Shown here one piece after another: positions 49,657-56,811 of a stretch of 64,000 nt of DNA (position 1 is the first letter of the stretch; every line of letters starts with the position of its first letter). The position numbers were made by a program, and so were the translations under genes. The stretch comes from Halobacillus amylolyticus (GTDB taxonomy: Bacteria > Bacillota > Bacilli > Bacillales > Halobacillaceae): contig NZ_CP095075.1 of the NCBI RefSeq assembly GCF_022921115.1, positions 558,001-622,000 on the forward strand, given 5' to 3'. The notes below the pieces were generated by a model, which saw nothing but the letters and a program-made list of their open reading frames with translations, was not told where the DNA came from and searched no databases.

Positions 49657-51267
49657 TTACCTTACCTTTCGTGACCAGTGCATTTCTCCAACTTCTGTTT
49701 CTGCAAGCTCAAGAGTAGTTCGATATGGTTTGAAATCTACATGTTTATTAACCGCGTAAATCTTTTGCGGGACACACAGAAATAAAGAGAGTGCTTTTTC
49801 AAATACATATCGGTCCACTTCTTTTGCTGCCGCGAGTAATTCCTCCCGTTGAACTTGATTTGCCATCTTCTTATATATCTGATCGAATCCGGGAAGCTCC
49901 GGACCAGTTCGAAGGGCCCCATCAGAACCAAACATTTCTCGATGGAAAAAAGCAGGGGTTCCCTCATAAAATTGGGTCGTTGTGCTTGCTAATAAAATAT
50001 CCCAACCAGGATTCAGTTTCTTTTCAGCAACCACCCGTTTCCATTTTACTTCTTGATCCTGTGGGACAACGATGGTCGTAACTTGGGTAGATAAAGTTTT
50101 TTGTATTTGAGCTGCCACAACATGCAATAGGCTTTCATGCTTTTTAAAAGCAGCGATTTTCAGAGGTCTATCTTTTGGATAGTTAGACCTCAAAAATAGC
50201 TCACGAGATTTTGTGAAATCGTACTTAATGGGTTCTAAACCCTCTGGAAAATCATAGGCCCATGGCGGTGTTAGTGCTGGAGTTAGTGTCGCCATTCCTT
50301 TATATACATTTTGGACTATTTCTTCACGCTGAATAGCCATATTTAACGAAGCTCTCAGGTCATAACTATCAAAATCGACCTCAGATTGGAAACGGTTAAA
50401 CACACCTGTGACAACCTCATTTCCATCTGAGGTTACCAACCTCGCATACTGAGATGATTCAACCTGCCGCGCATCGTTAGGAGTAAGTTCAGTTACGAGA
50501 TCCACATAGCCTTCTGTTGATGTACAAAGCTTTAACGCCTCTTTTTTTGATAGACCATTCCGAAAAATCACTCTCTTTAACCGTGGCCCTCGTCTGGGTT
50601 CACGATAGTTTAAGTTCGCATTTAAGGTGACGAAAGGGGTTCGCAATTCTTTCTCGGTAAGCCAGGTTCCTGCTAAAGGCTCTTTTTTAATAAATGCAAG
50701 TAGGTTTTCAATAGATGAATACCCCTCTGATAAAACAAACGGTCCGGTACCCCACGGGCCGGGTGCGTCAAGTACTCACCAATGGCCCTCCGCTGAGCCA
50801 AGCTTTCGGTAACCGAAACCAAGATAATTCCAAAAAAGAAAGTTCGCAAAATGGGTGGCTCTCAACTTAGCGACAGCCAATCCATCCGGTTTGGGAAAGT
50901 AAAGTTGAACTGTATAGGAATCAATGACTTTCAAGGTTGTTGGCTTAAAATAATTAAGAAAGGATCCAGGAGGATGAGGCACTAACCAACGTAGCAGTTC
51001 ATGAACACTTTTTTTGACCACCTGTGCCGTAAAAGGCTCGCCATCGTGGAAGGTAACACCTTCTTTTAGTTTAAGTTCTAAAACGGTATCACTTTTCCAT
51101 TCATAATTAGCAAGAGAAGGGATAATTGCACCTGAATGGTCGGCCCTTACAGATTCTTCCATCGTATTGTAGAGTATATACAACCAATTCAACGGTGATG
51201 GATCGACCACATAAATCATGCCTTCCGGTGTTGTAGTTGACACCCCTTCATTCTGCATTTTTTTCAT
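49657..51267 (-). pseudogene. ABC-type peptide-binding protein (SBP family 5), interrupted by an in-frame TGA
   Basis: One continuous frame of 537 codons encodes a family 5 solute-binding domain: WKSDTVLELKLKEGVTFHDGEPFTAQVVKKS near the start, then SAEGHW, TGA at 50776-50778, and immediately in the same frame VLDAPGPWGTGPFVLSEGYS through to MHWSRKVR. Only this stop breaks it, so a TGG-to-TGA change in the family's GHW(W) stretch is likely. GAGGTGATATGA precedes the ATG at 51267. There is no signal peptide and no N-terminal HTH, unlike secreted OppA or SgrR. It is either inactivated or read through. Confidence 0.8.
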
Positions 51268-51546
51268 TCATATCACCTCGGCTTTACACTATATATACTC
51301 CTTGATTTTGAGCGTTATACCTCTTGTTATTTATTAGCAATGACGTCCTAACAGTTGGGAAAACAGTTCTTTTTCTAACCCTCGAATTGGATTATGACTA
51401 TTTTTACACGCAAGCATTTTTCTCTACCAAAAATACAATTTCTATCAATAGCTTACTCTTTTAGGCTCATTCGACAAAAAAACATGATCCAATCTGTTTT
51501 TTCATACGAAAGCTTAGTGAATCAAATTATAAGGAGGAATTTTTTT

Positions 51547-51990
51547 ATGTTTAAAACTGTCGCAACGACAGGGTTAGCTTTAACTTTAGGACTGGGAATC
51601 GTATCATCTGGTACGGTCTTTGCTGCAGAAGGGGACACAGATGTACAAGCCAATACTGCTGTTAATGCCAGCCTGCAGAGTGAAGAAGATTCTTCAAGTA
51701 TTGACTTCGGCTCAGGACTAGGTCTGGACCTAAACCTTGAGGACGAAGGGGATAACAACACTGGTTTAAATGTTGGCACAGTAGTAGAAGGGTCAGTTGA
51801 AAGTGATAATGGATCAGATTCTTCCAGTGTCGATCTAGGAACGGGACTAGGTCTAGACTTAAATCTGGACAGCATTTTTGAGGATGATGAAGACGAGAAT
51901 AATACTAATGTAGATGTTGAAACAGGCGTAGAAGGATCTGTTCAAAGTGATAATGAATCCGACGATGGTTTGTTAAACGACATTCTATAA
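51547..51990 (+). CDS. secreted acidic two-repeat protein of unknown function
   Basis: A 147-residue product. A signal peptide (about 1-26, ending TVFA) is followed by an acidic mature region rich in D, S, N, G and E. It holds two copies of a unit built on SSSIDFGSGLGLDLNL (first) and SSSVDLGTGLGLDLNL (second), each followed by an acidic stretch and a V-GSV-SDN segment. I do not recognise a family. The strong negative charge would suit a protein exposed to high salt or binding cations. AAGGAGGA precedes the ATG; the frame is open upstream without a ribosome site. Confidence 0.75.
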   Translation: MFKTVATTGLALTLGLGIVSSGTVFAAEGDTDVQANTAVNASLQSEEDSSSIDFGSGLGLDLNLEDEGDNNTGLNVGTVVEGSVESDNGSDSSSVDLGTGLGLDLNLDSIFEDDEDENNTNVDVETGVEGSVQSDNESDDGLLNDIL

Positions 51991-52019
51991 GTCAACGTAT
52001 ATTAATAAATATATACCCT

Positions 52020-52060
52020 AAAAAGCCGGCTGCTTCGTTATGAAGTGGCCGGCTTTTATG
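52020..52060 (+). terminator. intrinsic terminator of the acidic protein gene
   Basis: A 10-bp stem AAAAGCCGGC / GCCGGCTTTT with an inner CTTC/GAAG pairing, then ATG-rich sequence. Confidence 0.85.
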
Positions 52061-52151
52061 TAAATCAAAAGCTTACTAACTATTTTCTGTTAATTTAGAT
52101 ATAAACAAGGATAAAGAACTATTTCTGCAAAGAAAATTTGATAAAGAGACA

Positions 52152-52382
52152 TTGGTCAAAGAAAGGAAGAACACATTCTTAAAAATTTATGAAAGTAATG
52201 GTCAAATTAAAGGTGCTTGTGAGGAGATTGAAATACAATTAACAACTTATTATAGATGGTTAAAAATTGATCCTATATTTCGGGATACCATTGAGCAAAT
52301 AAATAAATCACGTATAGAGAAGAGAGATTTAAAGAATAATTTTTATCAGGTTAACATAATATATATTATAGGCACTCATTAA
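52152..52382 (+). pseudogene. fragment of a phage-type helix-turn-helix protein
   Basis: The frame reads FLKIYESNGQIKGACEEIEIQLTTYYRWLKIDPIF, the pattern of the small phage HTH family (phBC6A51-like) that recognises DNA in prophages and transposons. The frame stays open upstream to about 52090 with no start codon or ribosome site, and the C-terminus degenerates after KRDLKNN. It looks like a leftover piece of a mobile element. It lies 0.6 kb left of the Tn3-like unit. Confidence 0.45.
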
Positions 52383-52450
52383 TTGAAAATTAAATCACGT
52401 CTCATTATATGAGTAAACTTCTGATAGTGAGACGCGATCGAAATTCTCTA

Positions 52451-52918
52451 TTAGTTTTCCTTGTATTTAGCTCCAGGTCTAAAGATTGTATTATTTCTGG
52501 ATTGCTCCATAATGTGTGCTGACCACCCGACGATTCGACTAGAACAAAAAATTGGTGTAAATAGATCTGCAGGTATTCCAATAGCTTTCATTAACGCTGC
52601 TGCATAGAACTCGACATTTGCATAAAGATTACGACCAGGCTTTAATTCATCAAGCCAACTAACTGTTTCATTTTCAACTTTTAATGTAAAATCGACCCAA
52701 TCTGGTTTAGGCTTAATTTTCATTAATTGTGCTTTTAATGCTTCAGCTCTAGGATCTTTAGTCTTATAAACGCGATGTCCAAATCCCATTACTTTTTCAC
52801 GGTTAGTCATTTTTTCTCTAATAACTTCTTCAACTGATTGATGTTTTACATCTTCAATATAATCCAACACTCCCGTCGGCGCACCTCCATGTAACGGTCC
52901 TTTTAATGCCCCAATACT
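52451..52918 (-). pseudogene. citrate synthase, C-terminal fragment
   Basis: About 155 codons of a citrate synthase (or 2-methylcitrate synthase) end: SIGALKGPLHGGAPTGVLDYIEDV, then the active-site region GFGHRVYKTKDPRAEALK, NVEFYAAALMKAIGIPADLFTPIFCSSRIVGW and a normal terminus AKYKEN. Homology stops abruptly near 52918, so roughly the first 215 residues are missing. The break lies about 100 bp from the left end of the Tn3-like unit, suggesting a deletion or insertion event. Confidence 0.8.
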
Positions 52919-52960
52919 CTATATAAATATGACCATTTCTATGAGGAGGAATTTTTAACG

Positions 52961-52986
52961 TTTGTAAACCAATTTTTGTTTACAAA
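52961..52986. promoter_or_regulatory. 26-bp inverted repeat, possible operator
   Basis: TTTGTAAAC (52961-52969) and GTTTACAAA (52978-52986) are perfect 9-bp arms separated by 8 nt. A GAGGAGG just to the left has no gene behind it. The arms look like a repressor site left from a lost gene. Confidence 0.35.
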
Positions 52987-53012
52987 TACGATTTAACTAT
53001 AGACTTTTCCAC

Positions 53013-53017
53013 ATTAA
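53013..53017. repeat. 5-bp target duplication, left copy
   Basis: ATTAA directly abuts the outer end of the left Tn3-type inverted repeat; the same five bases abut the right end (56807-56811). Confidence 0.65.
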
Positions 53018-53055
53018 GGGGTCTCGCCAACATTAAAAAAACCCTACGCTAAGCC
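53018..53055 (+). repeat. Tn3-type terminal inverted repeat, left
   Basis: GGGGTCTCGCCAACATT, an A-rich centre and CCCTACGCTAAGCC. Its sequence agrees with the right repeat at most positions, differing by a one-base indel in the A-run. Confidence 0.75.
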
Positions 53056-53111
53056 TCTTTTATCCATTAAAATCCCGGAATTCCTCACGCTAAGGATTTC
53101 CGGGATTAATT

Positions 53112-53180
53112 TTATATATTTAGGTTTCTCAATAGCGTTGTACGGCTTCCTAAGTCAAACGAATACTCACCATGTTAAGG
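53112..53180 (-). pseudogene. Tn3-family transposase, extreme C-terminal remnant (left)
   Basis: On the minus strand HGEYSFDLGSRTTLLRNLNI and a TAA at 53112-53114. The same ending, DYSFDLENRTTPLKNLNIK, occurs at the right end of the unit. A stem with arms AATCCCGGA and TCCGGGATT (53071-53107) follows the stop, probably a terminator, before the inverted repeat. Confidence 0.65.
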
Positions 53181-53212
53181 CTAAAATATGAGAATAGGAT
53201 GATTTTTCAGAT

Positions 53213-54187
53213 TCAGATCTTTTTAACAACACTACGGCTGATTAGATTGTCTCTTGCTTCAAGATATTCTTTATAAAGTTTATCTACAAATTCTGCTGCA
53301 CTAGTAACCTCTTTAATAGCACCAACACCTTGACCGCTTCCCCAAATATTCTTCCATGGCTTGACAGCCTCTTCACCAAAATTCATCTTGGATGGATCAC
53401 TTTCAGGAAGATTGTCAGGATCTAATCCTGCTGCTCGAATGGATGGTTTCAGATAATTTCCATGTACACCAGTGAAAAGACTGCTATAAACAATATCATC
53501 AGACGTACTGTCAACGATTGCTTGCTTATACTCTTCAGAAGCAAGGGCTTCATGCGTTGCGATGAACGGTGAGCCGATATATGCAAAATCAGCCCCCATT
53601 GCTTGGGCAGACAGGATTGCACCTCCCGTAGCAATCGATCCGGACAAAGCAAGTGGACCATCGAACCACTGTCGGATTTCTTGAATGAAAGCAAAAGGGC
53701 TCTTCACACCAGCATGACCGCCAGCTCCTGCGGCAACTGCAATTAAGCCATCTGCACCTTTGTCAATTGCCTTGTGTGCGAAAGTGTTGTTGATTACGTC
53801 GTGCAGAACAATTCCCCCGTAGCTATGTGCTGTATCAAATATTTCCTCACGGGCACCTAAGGACGAAATAATAATGGGAACTTTGTACTTTACACACAAT
53901 TCCATGTCGTGTTCTAACCGTTCATTTGACTTGTGAACAATTTGATTAATAGCAAATGGTGCAGCTGGACGATCTGGATTTTTTGCGTTATAAGCTGCGA
54001 GCTCCTCCGTGATTTCTGCCAACCATTCATCAAGTAAGGATGCGGGTCTAGCATTCAGTGCAGGCATTGATCCAACGATCCCTGCCTTACATTGCTCGAT
54101 CACTAGCTTAGGATTACTAATAATAAACATCGGTGATCCAATTACAGGGATACGCAAATTCTGAAGTGTTGACGGAATTCTTGACAT
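53213..54187 (-). CDS. nitronate monooxygenase family flavoprotein
   Basis: A 324-residue TIM-barrel FMN enzyme of the nitronate monooxygenase (2-nitropropane dioxygenase) family: RIPVIGSPMFIISNP at the N-terminus, NQIVHKSNERLEHD, and the flavin phosphate site around LIAVAAGAGGHAGVKSPF and LSGSIATGGAILSAQAMGADFAYIGSPF. It may oxidise toxic alkyl nitronates or act as an enoyl reductase-like enzyme. GGAGG in the upstream extension sets the ATG at 54187. It is the last gene of the operon inside the Tn3-like unit. Confidence 0.9.
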   Translation of the reverse strand: MSRIPSTLQNLRIPVIGSPMFIISNPKLVIEQCKAGIVGSMPALNARPASLLDEWLAEITEELAAYNAKNPDRPAAPFAINQIVHKSNERLEHDMELCVKYKVPIIISSLGAREEIFDTAHSYGGIVLHDVINNTFAHKAIDKGADGLIAVAAGAGGHAGVKSPFAFIQEIRQWFDGPLALSGSIATGGAILSAQAMGADFAYIGSPFIATHEALASEEYKQAIVDSTSDDIVYSSLFTGVHGNYLKPSIRAAGLDPDNLPESDPSKMNFGEEAVKPWKNIWGSGQGVGAIKEVTSAAEFVDKLYKEYLEARDNLISRSVVKKI

Positions 54188-54340
54188 TTGCTGTTCCTCC
54201 ATTCAATTTTTAGGAATGTAATTTGTGCCTCTATTGTTTTTGAAAAACATGTACTCTGAATTTTAGTAAATCTAAACTGTAGAAAGTGTAAAATCACTCA
54301 TTTTAATTGGTTTCATTCTTAATACTTTTTTTGAAGATCC

Positions 54341-54588
54341 TTACGATTTGCCCCTTTTGCCATCAGCATTTCCTTTTAGAATCATGCACATACTAGTTGA
54401 ATGATCAACAAGACTTCCTTTTTTTATCATATACATGACATTCAACTAAACCAGTAGAACTCCCTTTTTTATAATTTTACTTTCAGCGCGGAGTTTACCT
54501 TCCCAAATCGGTTTTAAGGAAATTTAACTTAGTTTCCACTGTGGTAAATAGTTCACCCTCATCCAGTGTACTAAACAAGGCAGAACCC
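54341..54588 (-). pseudogene. PaaI-type hotdog thioesterase remnant
   Basis: The minus strand reads GSALFSTLDEGELFTTVETKLNFL, then shifts and hits stops, and resumes KKGSSTGLVECHVYDKKGS and HSTSMCMILKGNADGKRG before a TAA at 54341-54343. This is the second half of a 4HBT/PaaI thioesterase; the N-terminal half with the catalytic His-Gly-Gly is gone. It fills the 419-nt gap between the MBL and nitronate monooxygenase genes, so the operon once had a thioesterase here. Confidence 0.7.
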
Positions 54589-54621
54589 GTTAGTTTAAGT
54601 TGAACAAACTACTTACTGGTT

Positions 54622-55428
54622 TTATATAAGCTTCTCATCAGAAATAATGGAAGAGACGATATGCAAAGAGTCCCATTCTCCTCCGGAAACTGCGACAATT
54701 GGATACTTTTTCGGGAAAAGCTTTTTATTGATTTCAGCAATTGGGAGTCCTTCCTTATGTAGACTTTTCACCTCATCACAAAGATTCTCAAGATAATTCA
54801 GCTTTTGTTTTAACATCCTTTTTCCATCCTGTATGTAGCCAGCATGGGAGCAAAACATTGGTCCGAAATCATAAGAGAGCAGCGTTCTGATTGAATTCAT
54901 AATTAGCGGGATCGATTCACTATCCATAATGACCTTTGTCTTCGGTGCCACAAATAAATCACCTGAAAATAACCTCCCTGTTTCTTCATGAAAAAGAGAG
55001 ATATGGTCACCTGCATGACCCGGTGTATAAATCACTTTCCAATCTTGACTTTGAGATTGAATCGTATTTCCAAGCGGTAAGGCTTCAAACTCTTTTCGTA
55101 CTCCCCAAGAAATCTGGCGATACTTTGGATATGGACATGGCTGCGCACATATATTGATCCCTTTAGGATGAATATATATGGGAGCACTCCGGTTCTCTTG
55201 AAACCATGAAGCCGTTCCCGTATGATCCTCATGGCTATGAGTTAATGTGACTAGCTCAATCGAATGATCTTCATAGAAAGGAATTATTTCAGACTCAAGG
55301 CATTTGGGTCCGGTATCAATTAACATGCCGTCTACCAAAAATGCATAAATCGTACCTCCTTTGCGACCAGACCTTACAACTCTCCCCTCTACACAGGTAA
55401 CGTCCTCTTTCTCATACACATCTATCAT
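54622..55428 (-). CDS. MBL-fold metallo-hydrolase
   Basis: A 268-residue metallo-beta-lactamase-fold hydrolase. The metal motif HSHEDH lies at residues 64-69, the second ligand set in TPGHAGDHISLF and the bridging Asp in RLFSGDLFVAP. A C-terminal helical segment with LHKEGLPIAEINKKLFP resembles the tail of hydroxyacylglutathione hydrolase-like MBL proteins. Substrate is unknown; a thioester or lactone fits the thioesterase remnants on both sides. It is the second of two largely intact enzymes in the transposon-borne operon. Confidence 0.88.
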   Translation of the reverse strand: MIDVYEKEDVTCVEGRVVRSGRKGGTIYAFLVDGMLIDTGPKCLESEIIPFYEDHSIELVTLTHSHEDHTGTASWFQENRSAPIYIHPKGINICAQPCPYPKYRQISWGVRKEFEALPLGNTIQSQSQDWKVIYTPGHAGDHISLFHEETGRLFSGDLFVAPKTKVIMDSESIPLIMNSIRTLLSYDFGPMFCSHAGYIQDGKRMLKQKLNYLENLCDEVKSLHKEGLPIAEINKKLFPKKYPIVAVSGGEWDSLHIVSSIISDEKLI

Positions 55429-55463
55429 GGTTTGTTCACACTCCTATCTATTTAGTAATGGTT

Positions 55464-55928
55464 TTACCTTTTACCAATGACCGCCATCGAGCAATGAGAT
55501 ATACAAATCAGCTTTCCAGCTTCATCAGTCATTTTAATATCCAGACCGTTGTATTTGTAAAAAGGGGGGACGGCTGCCGTGACAACGCGATCAATTTTAC
55601 CTGAATCTCGAATATGGTTTGCATTGATTTCCATCCAACTGGGTTAAACTTTTTGGGATTTATTTTGGGATTTATATTGATAGCAGTCGCCATGGTCGCT
55701 GTCATTTCTGCCAAAGCAATAAGATGCCCCTTCATGTAAAATACCAGCTGGTTGCCTTGTTTTAGATCCTACTGGCATAGTCATTACCACACGGTCTGGC
55801 GTGAGTTCCGCATATTCCATTTCAAGTTCTTCAATAAGAGTATGTTTGCTCCTGGACCGTATCTGTTCAGCAAAAGACTCCTCGCCCTATACACCGTATA
55901 AATCTAACACTTCTTGGGAAACGATCAT
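55464..55928 (-). pseudogene. hotdog-fold thioesterase, stop and frameshifts
   Basis: An ATG at 55926-55928 overlaps the stop of the MarR gene (ATGA). The frame MIVSQEVLDLYGV meets a TAG after 13 codons, then continues HTLIEELEMEYAELTPDRVVMTMPVG and QPAGILHEGASY, shifts frame (ALAEMTATMATAININ) and ends ITDEAGKL-like as KMTDEAGKLICISHCSMAVIGKR. This is a YdiI/PaaI-type acyl-CoA thioesterase of about 145 residues, now inactive. It confirms an operon order regulator, thioesterase, MBL, thioesterase, monooxygenase. Confidence 0.78.
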
Positions 55929-56380
55929 TCCAATCCTCTATTCTTGTTTTTTATTCCAATGTCGAAAAGTATTTCCTTAAATTGCTGAAACTCCTCATCA
56001 TCAAAGTCAGACATCACTTCTTCATTCATTTCATCCATCTTCTCGCATAAAGAATGCTCCATAGATCTCCCTTTTTCAGTCAGAAAAATCAGCCTGTTGC
56101 GGCGATCTTTTGGATCAAATTGCCGTTCAATAAACTCGTTTTGTTCCAGTCGGTCAATAATACCTGTTACAGTAGCACTGTCTAGCTGAAGTCTTTCCCC
56201 TAATACAGAACTAAATTGCCCATCATCTTCCTTCCACAGAAAGCGAAGCAACGCATATTGAGCAGGTGTTACACCATACGGGGATAATTTGGATTTACTT
56301 ACTTGGTTTACTTTTTGCAAAGCTGTCCTAAGAAGAAACTGTACACAGATATCGGATTCTTTGATTTCATTCACCCTCAC
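55925..56380 (-). CDS. MarR family transcriptional regulator
   Basis: A 151-residue MarR repressor: dimer helix LLRTALQKVNQVSKSKLSPYGVTPAQYALLRFL, recognition region GERLQLDSATVTGIIDRLEQNEFIER and wing KDRRNRLIFLTEKG. It starts at a GTG at 56380 (a GTG two codons later is also possible). A perfect 22-bp palindrome lies 8 nt upstream of the start, so it most likely represses its own operon and responds to an aromatic or acyl ligand that the downstream enzymes process. Confidence 0.88.
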   Translation of the reverse strand: MRVNEIKESDICVQFLLRTALQKVNQVSKSKLSPYGVTPAQYALLRFLWKEDDGQFSSVLGERLQLDSATVTGIIDRLEQNEFIERQFDPKDRRNRLIFLTEKGRSMEHSLCEKMDEMNEEVMSDFDDEEFQQFKEILFDIGIKNKNRGLE

Positions 56381-56388
56381 TTGACCAA

Positions 56389-56410
56389 ATATTCAAACTA
56401 GTTTGAATAT
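56389..56410. promoter_or_regulatory. perfect 22-bp palindrome, probable MarR operator
   Basis: The half-site ATATTCAAACT is followed by its exact reverse complement with no spacer. A second, looser inverted repeat TGCACA ... TGTGCA (56430-56450) lies just upstream. Position directly before the MarR start codon indicates autoregulation. Confidence 0.75.
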
Positions 56411-56660
56411 AACACGAGTACAATTGATTTGCACACAATTAATTTGTGCACAAGCGATTTAAATGGATTTTAGAAGTTATCGAAATAACCTCCAATAGTG
56501 TAGTAACGCAGGGAATTGTATAGTATTTTATGTTAAAACCTCAAACACGCATCCCCCGTCAAGGACGAGGTTCAAATAAAGGTGTTTAGTTATTGATTAA
56601 ATCGGATTCCTTTTATTGTAATTTTCTATTTAGTTTCCGGAATCGCAGCTTCGCTGGTAT

Positions 56661-56756
56661 TGCCCATTAGATTGGGAGCACATTAGCCTGCTTGGCGATT
56701 ATTCATTTGATTTAGAAAATCGTACAACGCCATTGAAAAACCTAAATATAAAATGA
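56661..56756 (+). pseudogene. Tn3-family transposase, C-terminal remnant (right)
   Basis: The plus strand reads CPLDWEHISLLGDYSFDLEN then RTTPLKNLNIK and a TGA at 56754-56756. Tn3-family transposases end with a SPLGWEHINLTGDY-type motif, which this matches. It is followed 12 nt later by the right inverted repeat, the normal layout for the transposase end of such a transposon. The body of the transposase is absent. Confidence 0.72.
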
Positions 56757-56768
56757 AGCTCAGAAATC

Positions 56769-56806
56769 CTTAGCGTAGGATTTTTTCAAAATGTTGGCGT
56801 GACCTC
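56769..56806 (-). repeat. Tn3-type terminal inverted repeat, right
   Basis: Read inward it is GAGGTCACGCCAACATT, a T/A-run and ATCCTACGCTAAGG. The outermost GGGG has become GAGG, which may have crippled this end. Confidence 0.72.
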
Positions 56807-56811
56807 ATTAA
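56807..56811. repeat. 5-bp target duplication, right copy
   Basis: ATTAA, identical to 53013-53017. Confidence 0.65.

Follow-up and report, generated by a model that had tools for sequence, protein, structure and literature searches.

On the chromosome of Halobacillus amylolyticus (GCF_022921115.1, here genome G000), an operon of metabolic genes lies in a unit of 3,789 bp (~3.8 kb; 53018-56806) that is delimited at both ends by outward-facing inverted repeats. We regard it as probable that this unit is a non-autonomous element of the Tn3 family, whose operon was moved, by a transposase acting in trans, between two short ends that both derive from the tnpA-proximal side of a transposon. The unit was studied within a window of 64,000 nt (NZ_CP095075.1, 558,001-622,000, forward strand), to which all coordinates refer unless a replicon is named, C1 being the chromosome and C2 a plasmid of 145 kb. 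Comparisons within the genus drew on 11 genomes including G000, among them the relatives G003, G005 and G006.

Target site and terminal repeats

In G006, a sister species, the target is uninterrupted: the left flank of the unit continues directly into the right one, with one ATTAA and no repeat at the junction, and in the window the same five bases stand on either side of the unit (53013-53017 and 56807-56811), so that the 3,789 bp entered as one transposition event. As Tn3 elements are not known for precise excision, we read the difference as an insertion on the branch leading to the window and not as a loss in G006. Both the five identical flanking bases and the movement as one element, claimed in a first-pass annotation made from the letters of the window alone, are thereby borne out, and the empty site that it had proposed to look for exists; G006 does not carry the operon at this place without repeats, as its copy sits elsewhere. 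Among the ten other genus genomes, G006 alone matched the stretch immediately to the right of the insertion, and the empty site therefore rests on one genome. The insertion site itself is intergenic, adjoining a LysR and citrate synthase gene pair.

Agreement of the flanks in all five positions has a chance probability of ~0.0014 under the local base composition. A purely accidental arrangement, with solo ends of unrelated origin on either side of the operon and an ATTAA pair due to chance, draws on the existence of such ends in relatives (two in G006, and a tnpA relic with an end in Bacillus solitudinis), but it is contradicted by the contiguous flanks with one ATTAA in G006; the coincidental pairing is ruled out by this empty site, and we give it practically no credence.

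The left terminal inverted repeat (53018-53053, plus strand) comprises 36 bp and reads GGGGTCTCGCCAACATT...CCTACGCTAAG, the right one (56769-56806, minus strand) comprises 38 bp and reads CTTAGCGTAGG...GGCGTGACCTC, and they are identical in 32 of 38 aligned columns. The initial description of two 38-bp inverted repeats is thus correct in their outward orientation and Tn3 type, and has to be amended in the length of the left one. Tn3-family ends follow a GGGG...TAAG rule; here the left repeat starts with GGGG and the right with GAGG, and both end with TAAG. Outward repeats of 36 and 38 bp, together with a 5-bp duplication that is single in the empty site, are further features of Tn3-family ends present in the unit. 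Within the window, exact matches to TCNCGCCAACATT (head pattern) and to CCTACGCTAAG (tail pattern) occur at these two ends only, the shuffle controls for head and tail having been set at two and one mismatches, respectively, which makes them uninformative for exact matches.

Transposase relics in the two arms

Inward of each repeat, the C-terminal codons of related transposases are readable, as the first-pass annotation had noted. On the left, the last 19 codons and the stop are preserved (GEYSFDLGSRTTLLRNLNI; 53112-53171, minus strand), recognised from the sequence and from comparison of the arms, and on the right the last 30 codons and the stop (PLDWEHISLLGDYSFDLENRTTPLKNLNIK; 56664-56756, plus strand), recognised from the sequence and by a peptide search; a complete TnpA has ~990 codons. 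Over the common part the right peptide reads GDYSFDLENRTTPLKNLNIK and the left GEYSFDLGSRTTLLRNLNI. The right peptide matched the C-termini of plasmid Tn3 transposases in 598 records (E up to 1), with 53-63% identity as the best among the matches listed. Terminal repeat and last TnpA codons together form arms of ~140-165 bp, both of them tnpA-proximal ends, which are identical at 77 of 96 aligned positions (~80%), the DNA likeness of the left arm to the right one extending to ~53182. Neither a repeat search nor a pattern search found an inner repeat in either arm, where it may have decayed.

The left arm further contains a sub-terminal palindrome (ATCCCGGAATTCCTCACGCTAAGGATTTCCGGGAT; 53070-53110, approximate limits), found by a pattern search and with folding z-scores of -4.9 and -5.6. 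Plasmid C2 carries three intact Tn3 transposase genes and includes one intact transposon of ~5.7 kb (C2 ~50035-55781) in which tnpA comes after a gene for a tyrosine recombinase (TnpI/TnpA type), and whose ends are identical to the repeats of the unit in 29 of 40 and 29 of 41 columns. A palindrome of the same type (CCGGAATTC...ACGCTAA-type loop...GAATTCCGG) lies inside both repeats of this transposon, and in G000 the type occurs at four places, namely the left arm of the unit, C1:2139311 and both of these ends. It is missing from the right arm, whose sequence is that of the left one without 41 bp lying between two ACGCTAAG repeats, and we read its absence as a deletion between these repeats. 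Repeats that recur in other genomes, resemble the ends of the plasmid transposon and enclose codons matching Tn3 TnpA C-termini agree with the Tn3 assignment made at first pass. As side observations, the palindrome at C1:2139311-2139339 stands beside a degenerate end-like sequence and marks perhaps another such transposon remnant, and the transposon on C2 is flanked by TTGTT and TACAT, hence without a 5-bp duplication.

From the two tnpA-proximal ends we infer, in line with the first-pass annotation, that two complete, oppositely oriented transposons had lost their interiors. The divergence between the arms was not accepted as proof of two different parents, as most of the difference could have accumulated after the lineages of the window and G006 had parted. 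An origin of both arms as copies of one end, by inverted duplication or from two copies of a small element with later divergence, is consistent with the 77 of 96 identical positions, with a neutral divergence since the G006 split (dS, the synonymous divergence, of ~0.4; ~15% in the right flank) that could give most of the 20% difference, and with the explanation of the missing right palindrome by the 41-bp deletion. We hold it nevertheless to be very improbable, given that the inner limits of the arms lie ~10 codons apart and that the terminal repeats differ by substitutions and by 2 bp, although neither point is a strong one.

Proposed course of the relocation

We propose that two short, outward-facing tnpA-proximal ends came to flank a resident operon for a MarR regulator, a thioesterase-like protein, an MBL-fold protein and a nitronate monooxygenase (NMO), and that a Tn3-family transposase supplied in trans would have recognised both ends. 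Replicative transposition, the established mechanism of the Tn3 family, would then have carried everything between them into the intergenic site and duplicated ATTAA. At the time of this move the arms would already have been short, and an MFS transporter gene of the operon may have been lost before or after it. With 19 and 30 of ~990 codons left, the arms favour ends that were already reduced, because breakpoints falling at random along tnpA after the insertion would be unlikely to leave two remnants as short as these.

A different order of events, in which two complete Tn3 copies moved as an inverted composite by their own transposase and had their interiors deleted in place afterwards, would likewise leave two tnpA-proximal arms. 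Composites made of entire Tn3-family elements have been published (IS1071 and Tn3434, in the sections considered of PMC4133298), and decay is seen elsewhere in the region, in a broken thioesterase-like gene and in ~1.5 kb lost beside the left end. However, this course needs two separate multi-kb deletions, each ending within ~60-95 bp of a tnpA stop codon, and sequence comparisons revealed no remnant of tnpA, a recombinase gene or an inner repeat at 53183-56640, an interval for which no dedicated protein search was made. We consider it unlikely.

Several observations weigh against a move of short ends by a transposase in trans, beginning with the consideration that the arms may still have been complete transposons at the time of the move. 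The exact end pattern occurs in G000 at the unit itself only, the repeats of the transposon at C2 ~50035-55781 match those of the unit at only 29 of 40-41 columns, and an autonomous parent with matching ends was not found, the ends belonging to the TnpA at C2:11016-13487 being unresolved. Similarly, no donor site of the unit was found, and its presence in one genome only does not by itself demonstrate present-day mobility. Moreover, the cargo genes do not have one shared history, as the dS of the NMO gene is below that of the other cargo genes. Considering that none of the three C2 transposases could be connected with the ends of the unit (again with one pair left aside), the unit is probably stranded and immobile in its present host. 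We suggest only tentatively, as a possible but doubtful generalization, that a 'same-ended' unit of this kind, with two right-hand Bacillota Tn3 ends that had shrunk to ~140-165 bp before the move, suffices to relocate a resident metabolic operon within a chromosome, its genes continuing to work there.

Distribution of the end type

The exact end pattern was present in two of 44 family genomes (G000 and G006) and in one of 249 order genomes (G000, with G006 outside that draw), and a collection of named genomes yielded 12 stretches with it. The end type was seen in Clostridium, Alkalihalobacillus, Shimazuella, Bacillus solitudinis, Pseudalkalibacillus and Priestia, mostly as single ends where inspected, and none of the 12 loci had a partner end within the surrounding DNA examined (mostly 8 kb). 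At one of the 12 (Shimazuella alba, L052) a protein matched the TnpAs of C2 at 24%, and a Tn3 TnpA match was obtained in six of seven genomes (reached from 7 of the 12 end-pattern loci, plus G006). C-terminal motifs were read at three of 11 scanned loci, none of them closely like those in the arms of the unit. The closest repeat found belongs to one of the two solo ends of this type in G006, with 36 of 39 columns identical, and a DNA search with either arm against a plasmid collection gave no match. In Bacillus solitudinis (L085), a solo tnpA C-terminal relic is followed by a similar end, an arrangement like one arm alone.

Cargo operon and its history

The first-pass annotation had named a MarR-thioesterase-MBL-NMO operon as cargo, and three of these genes, all on the minus strand, have intact frames: the NMO gene (53213-54202; 329 aa, a nitronate monooxygenase/FabK-like FMN protein, PF03060 with E 2e-17, below the cut-off of the NCBIfam FabK model), the gene of an MBL-fold metallo-hydrolase (54622-55428; 268 aa, PF00753 with E 7.8e-17) and that of a MarR-family regulator (55925-56380; 151 aa, GTG start, PF01047 with E 7.8e-15). 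The fourth, a hotdog-thioesterase-like gene assigned by eye (55460-55930, minus strand), is broken by stops in its main frame, and a Pfam search with its two pieces returned no relevant match. The cargo gave no indication of genes for resistance or virulence.

The counterpart in G006 lies at C1:1550399-1554669 of that genome, elsewhere than the insertion site of the unit, with the gene order NMO, MFS transporter, MBL, thioesterase-like remnant and MarR. The MFS gene between NMO and MBL has been lost from the unit (its site being 54357-54612 by comparison with G006). The likeness to the G006 operon spans 53207-56463 and ends inside both arms, which places the border between cargo and arm within ~25 bp at the left arm and within ~200 bp at the right one. 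No ends of the unit's type were found in the 14 kb surrounding the G006 operon (L033), the neighborhood of which is mostly absent from G000, and in G005 and G003 the NMO and MBL genes stand at separate places.

Between the window and G006, dS amounts to 0.41 for MBL and 0.34 for MarR, which is similar to the four control loci (0.40 for an RlmCD-like gene, 0.33 and 0.40 for right-flank genes, and 0.59 for a citrate synthase fragment), so that this cargo looks native to the lineage. The values fit an MBL-MarR part that was inherited vertically since the common ancestor and relocated later. For NMO, dS is 0.19 to G006 and 0.24 to G005 (range 0.18-0.24 among the window, G005 and G006), and for the RlmCD-like gene it is 1.24-1.27 between G005 and the window and G006; the NMO gene was probably exchanged within the genus. 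The pairwise ratio of nonsynonymous to synonymous divergence (dN/dS) of the cargo against the nearest homologues in G006 and G005 is 0.12-0.20, compared with control values of 0.07 for the truncated citrate synthase fragment and 0.02-0.03 for the RlmCD-like gene, and is compatible with working genes. As proof that the cargo works at its new place it was not accepted, because part of the time that the values cover precedes the move, and because a ratio of 0.07 is also obtained for the citrate synthase fragment, which is necessarily dead.

Furthermore, a second, broken NMO copy is located in G000 at C1:2062712-2063103 (L019 ~2213-2604), between lipase-like and RlmCD-like genes. As a donor remnant it is disfavoured, being 84% identical to the NMO of the unit, versus 90% for G006. 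A gene 2.4 kb from this copy matches G006 ~18 kb from its operon.

Relation to described elements

In a Tn3-type mobile insertion cassette (MIC) the repeats are identical to those of an autonomous transposon in the host itself or in a relative, and for the unit such identity was not found. MIC231 of Bacillus cereus is a gene cassette between transposon ends without transposase that derives from IS231 (IS4 family); it shares with the unit the Bacillota host and the transposase-less build, and differs from it in being made of IS231/IS4 and not of Tn3 ends.

A close parallel is offered by TIME-COMP elements, in which, as described in the portions considered of two papers (PMC4133298, PMC13367494), a pair of short Tn3-derived elements, oriented directly or inversely, encloses ordinary DNA without a transposase, with 38-bp ends and AT-rich 5-bp duplications. 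Their sizes are given as 1.3-11.4 kb (PMC13367494) and as 2.5 and 3.9 kb in 2014 (PMC4133298), and their movement was demonstrated experimentally in the latter work. The unit is likewise transposase-less DNA between two short Tn3-derived arms with a 5-bp duplication. Unlike in TIME elements, which have repeats at both of their own ends, no inner repeat was detected in its arms; it lies on a Bacillota chromosome with a metabolic operon, whereas the cases in these portions are from Pseudomonas and Enterobacteriaceae; and its movement is read from sequence, that of TIME-COMP from experiment. In Xanthomonas, TnXax1-like MICs lack a transposase and hold passenger genes between repeats that belong to a transposon of the Tn3 family (PMC4619425, as far as its text on MICs goes), which is also the build of the unit, although Tn3 subgroup and cargo are others and the unit keeps tnpA codons in both arms, a trait on which that text is silent.

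The Tn4430/Tn5401 group has, like the C2 transposon, a tyrosine recombinase gene followed by tnpA, and Tn5401 possesses an extra TnpI site near each end, according to the part considered of PMC7157771; by analogy, the sub-terminal palindrome may parallel these sites. Members of this group are autonomous, whereas the unit has neither a tnpI nor a tnpA gene.

Overall, the unit resembles a TIME-COMP or a Tn3-type MIC, a kind of element already described, here with metabolic cargo on a Bacillota chromosome. The first-pass remark that such a carrier was not known can therefore be kept for the cargo and not for the kind of element: among open-licence papers, we found none on this cargo within a Tn3 element and none joining TIME elements and Bacillaceae. 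Descriptions of Tn3-derived composites mostly concern Gram-negative plasmids and cargo for resistance or virulence, as far as the portions considered of three papers indicate (PMC4133298, PMC13367494, PMC4619425). With its empty site, the unit shows this kind of relocation for an ordinary operon on a Bacillota chromosome, and suggests that transposase-less relics, which are easily overlooked in annotation, help to reshuffle native genes; it is a clean example and not a new principle.

Flanking region

Left of the unit, the window lacks ~1.5 kb of G006 sequence (52340-52996; counterpart in G006 at L032 4079-6256). At a distance of ~20-100 bp from the left end of the unit, the loss fuses the 3' end of the LysR gene to the 3' part of the citrate synthase gene, each of which is whole in G006. 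Further to the left, two open reading frames on the minus strand (49657-51267; 329 and 163 aa) resemble, by eye, one frame-broken solute-binding/SgrR-like protein.

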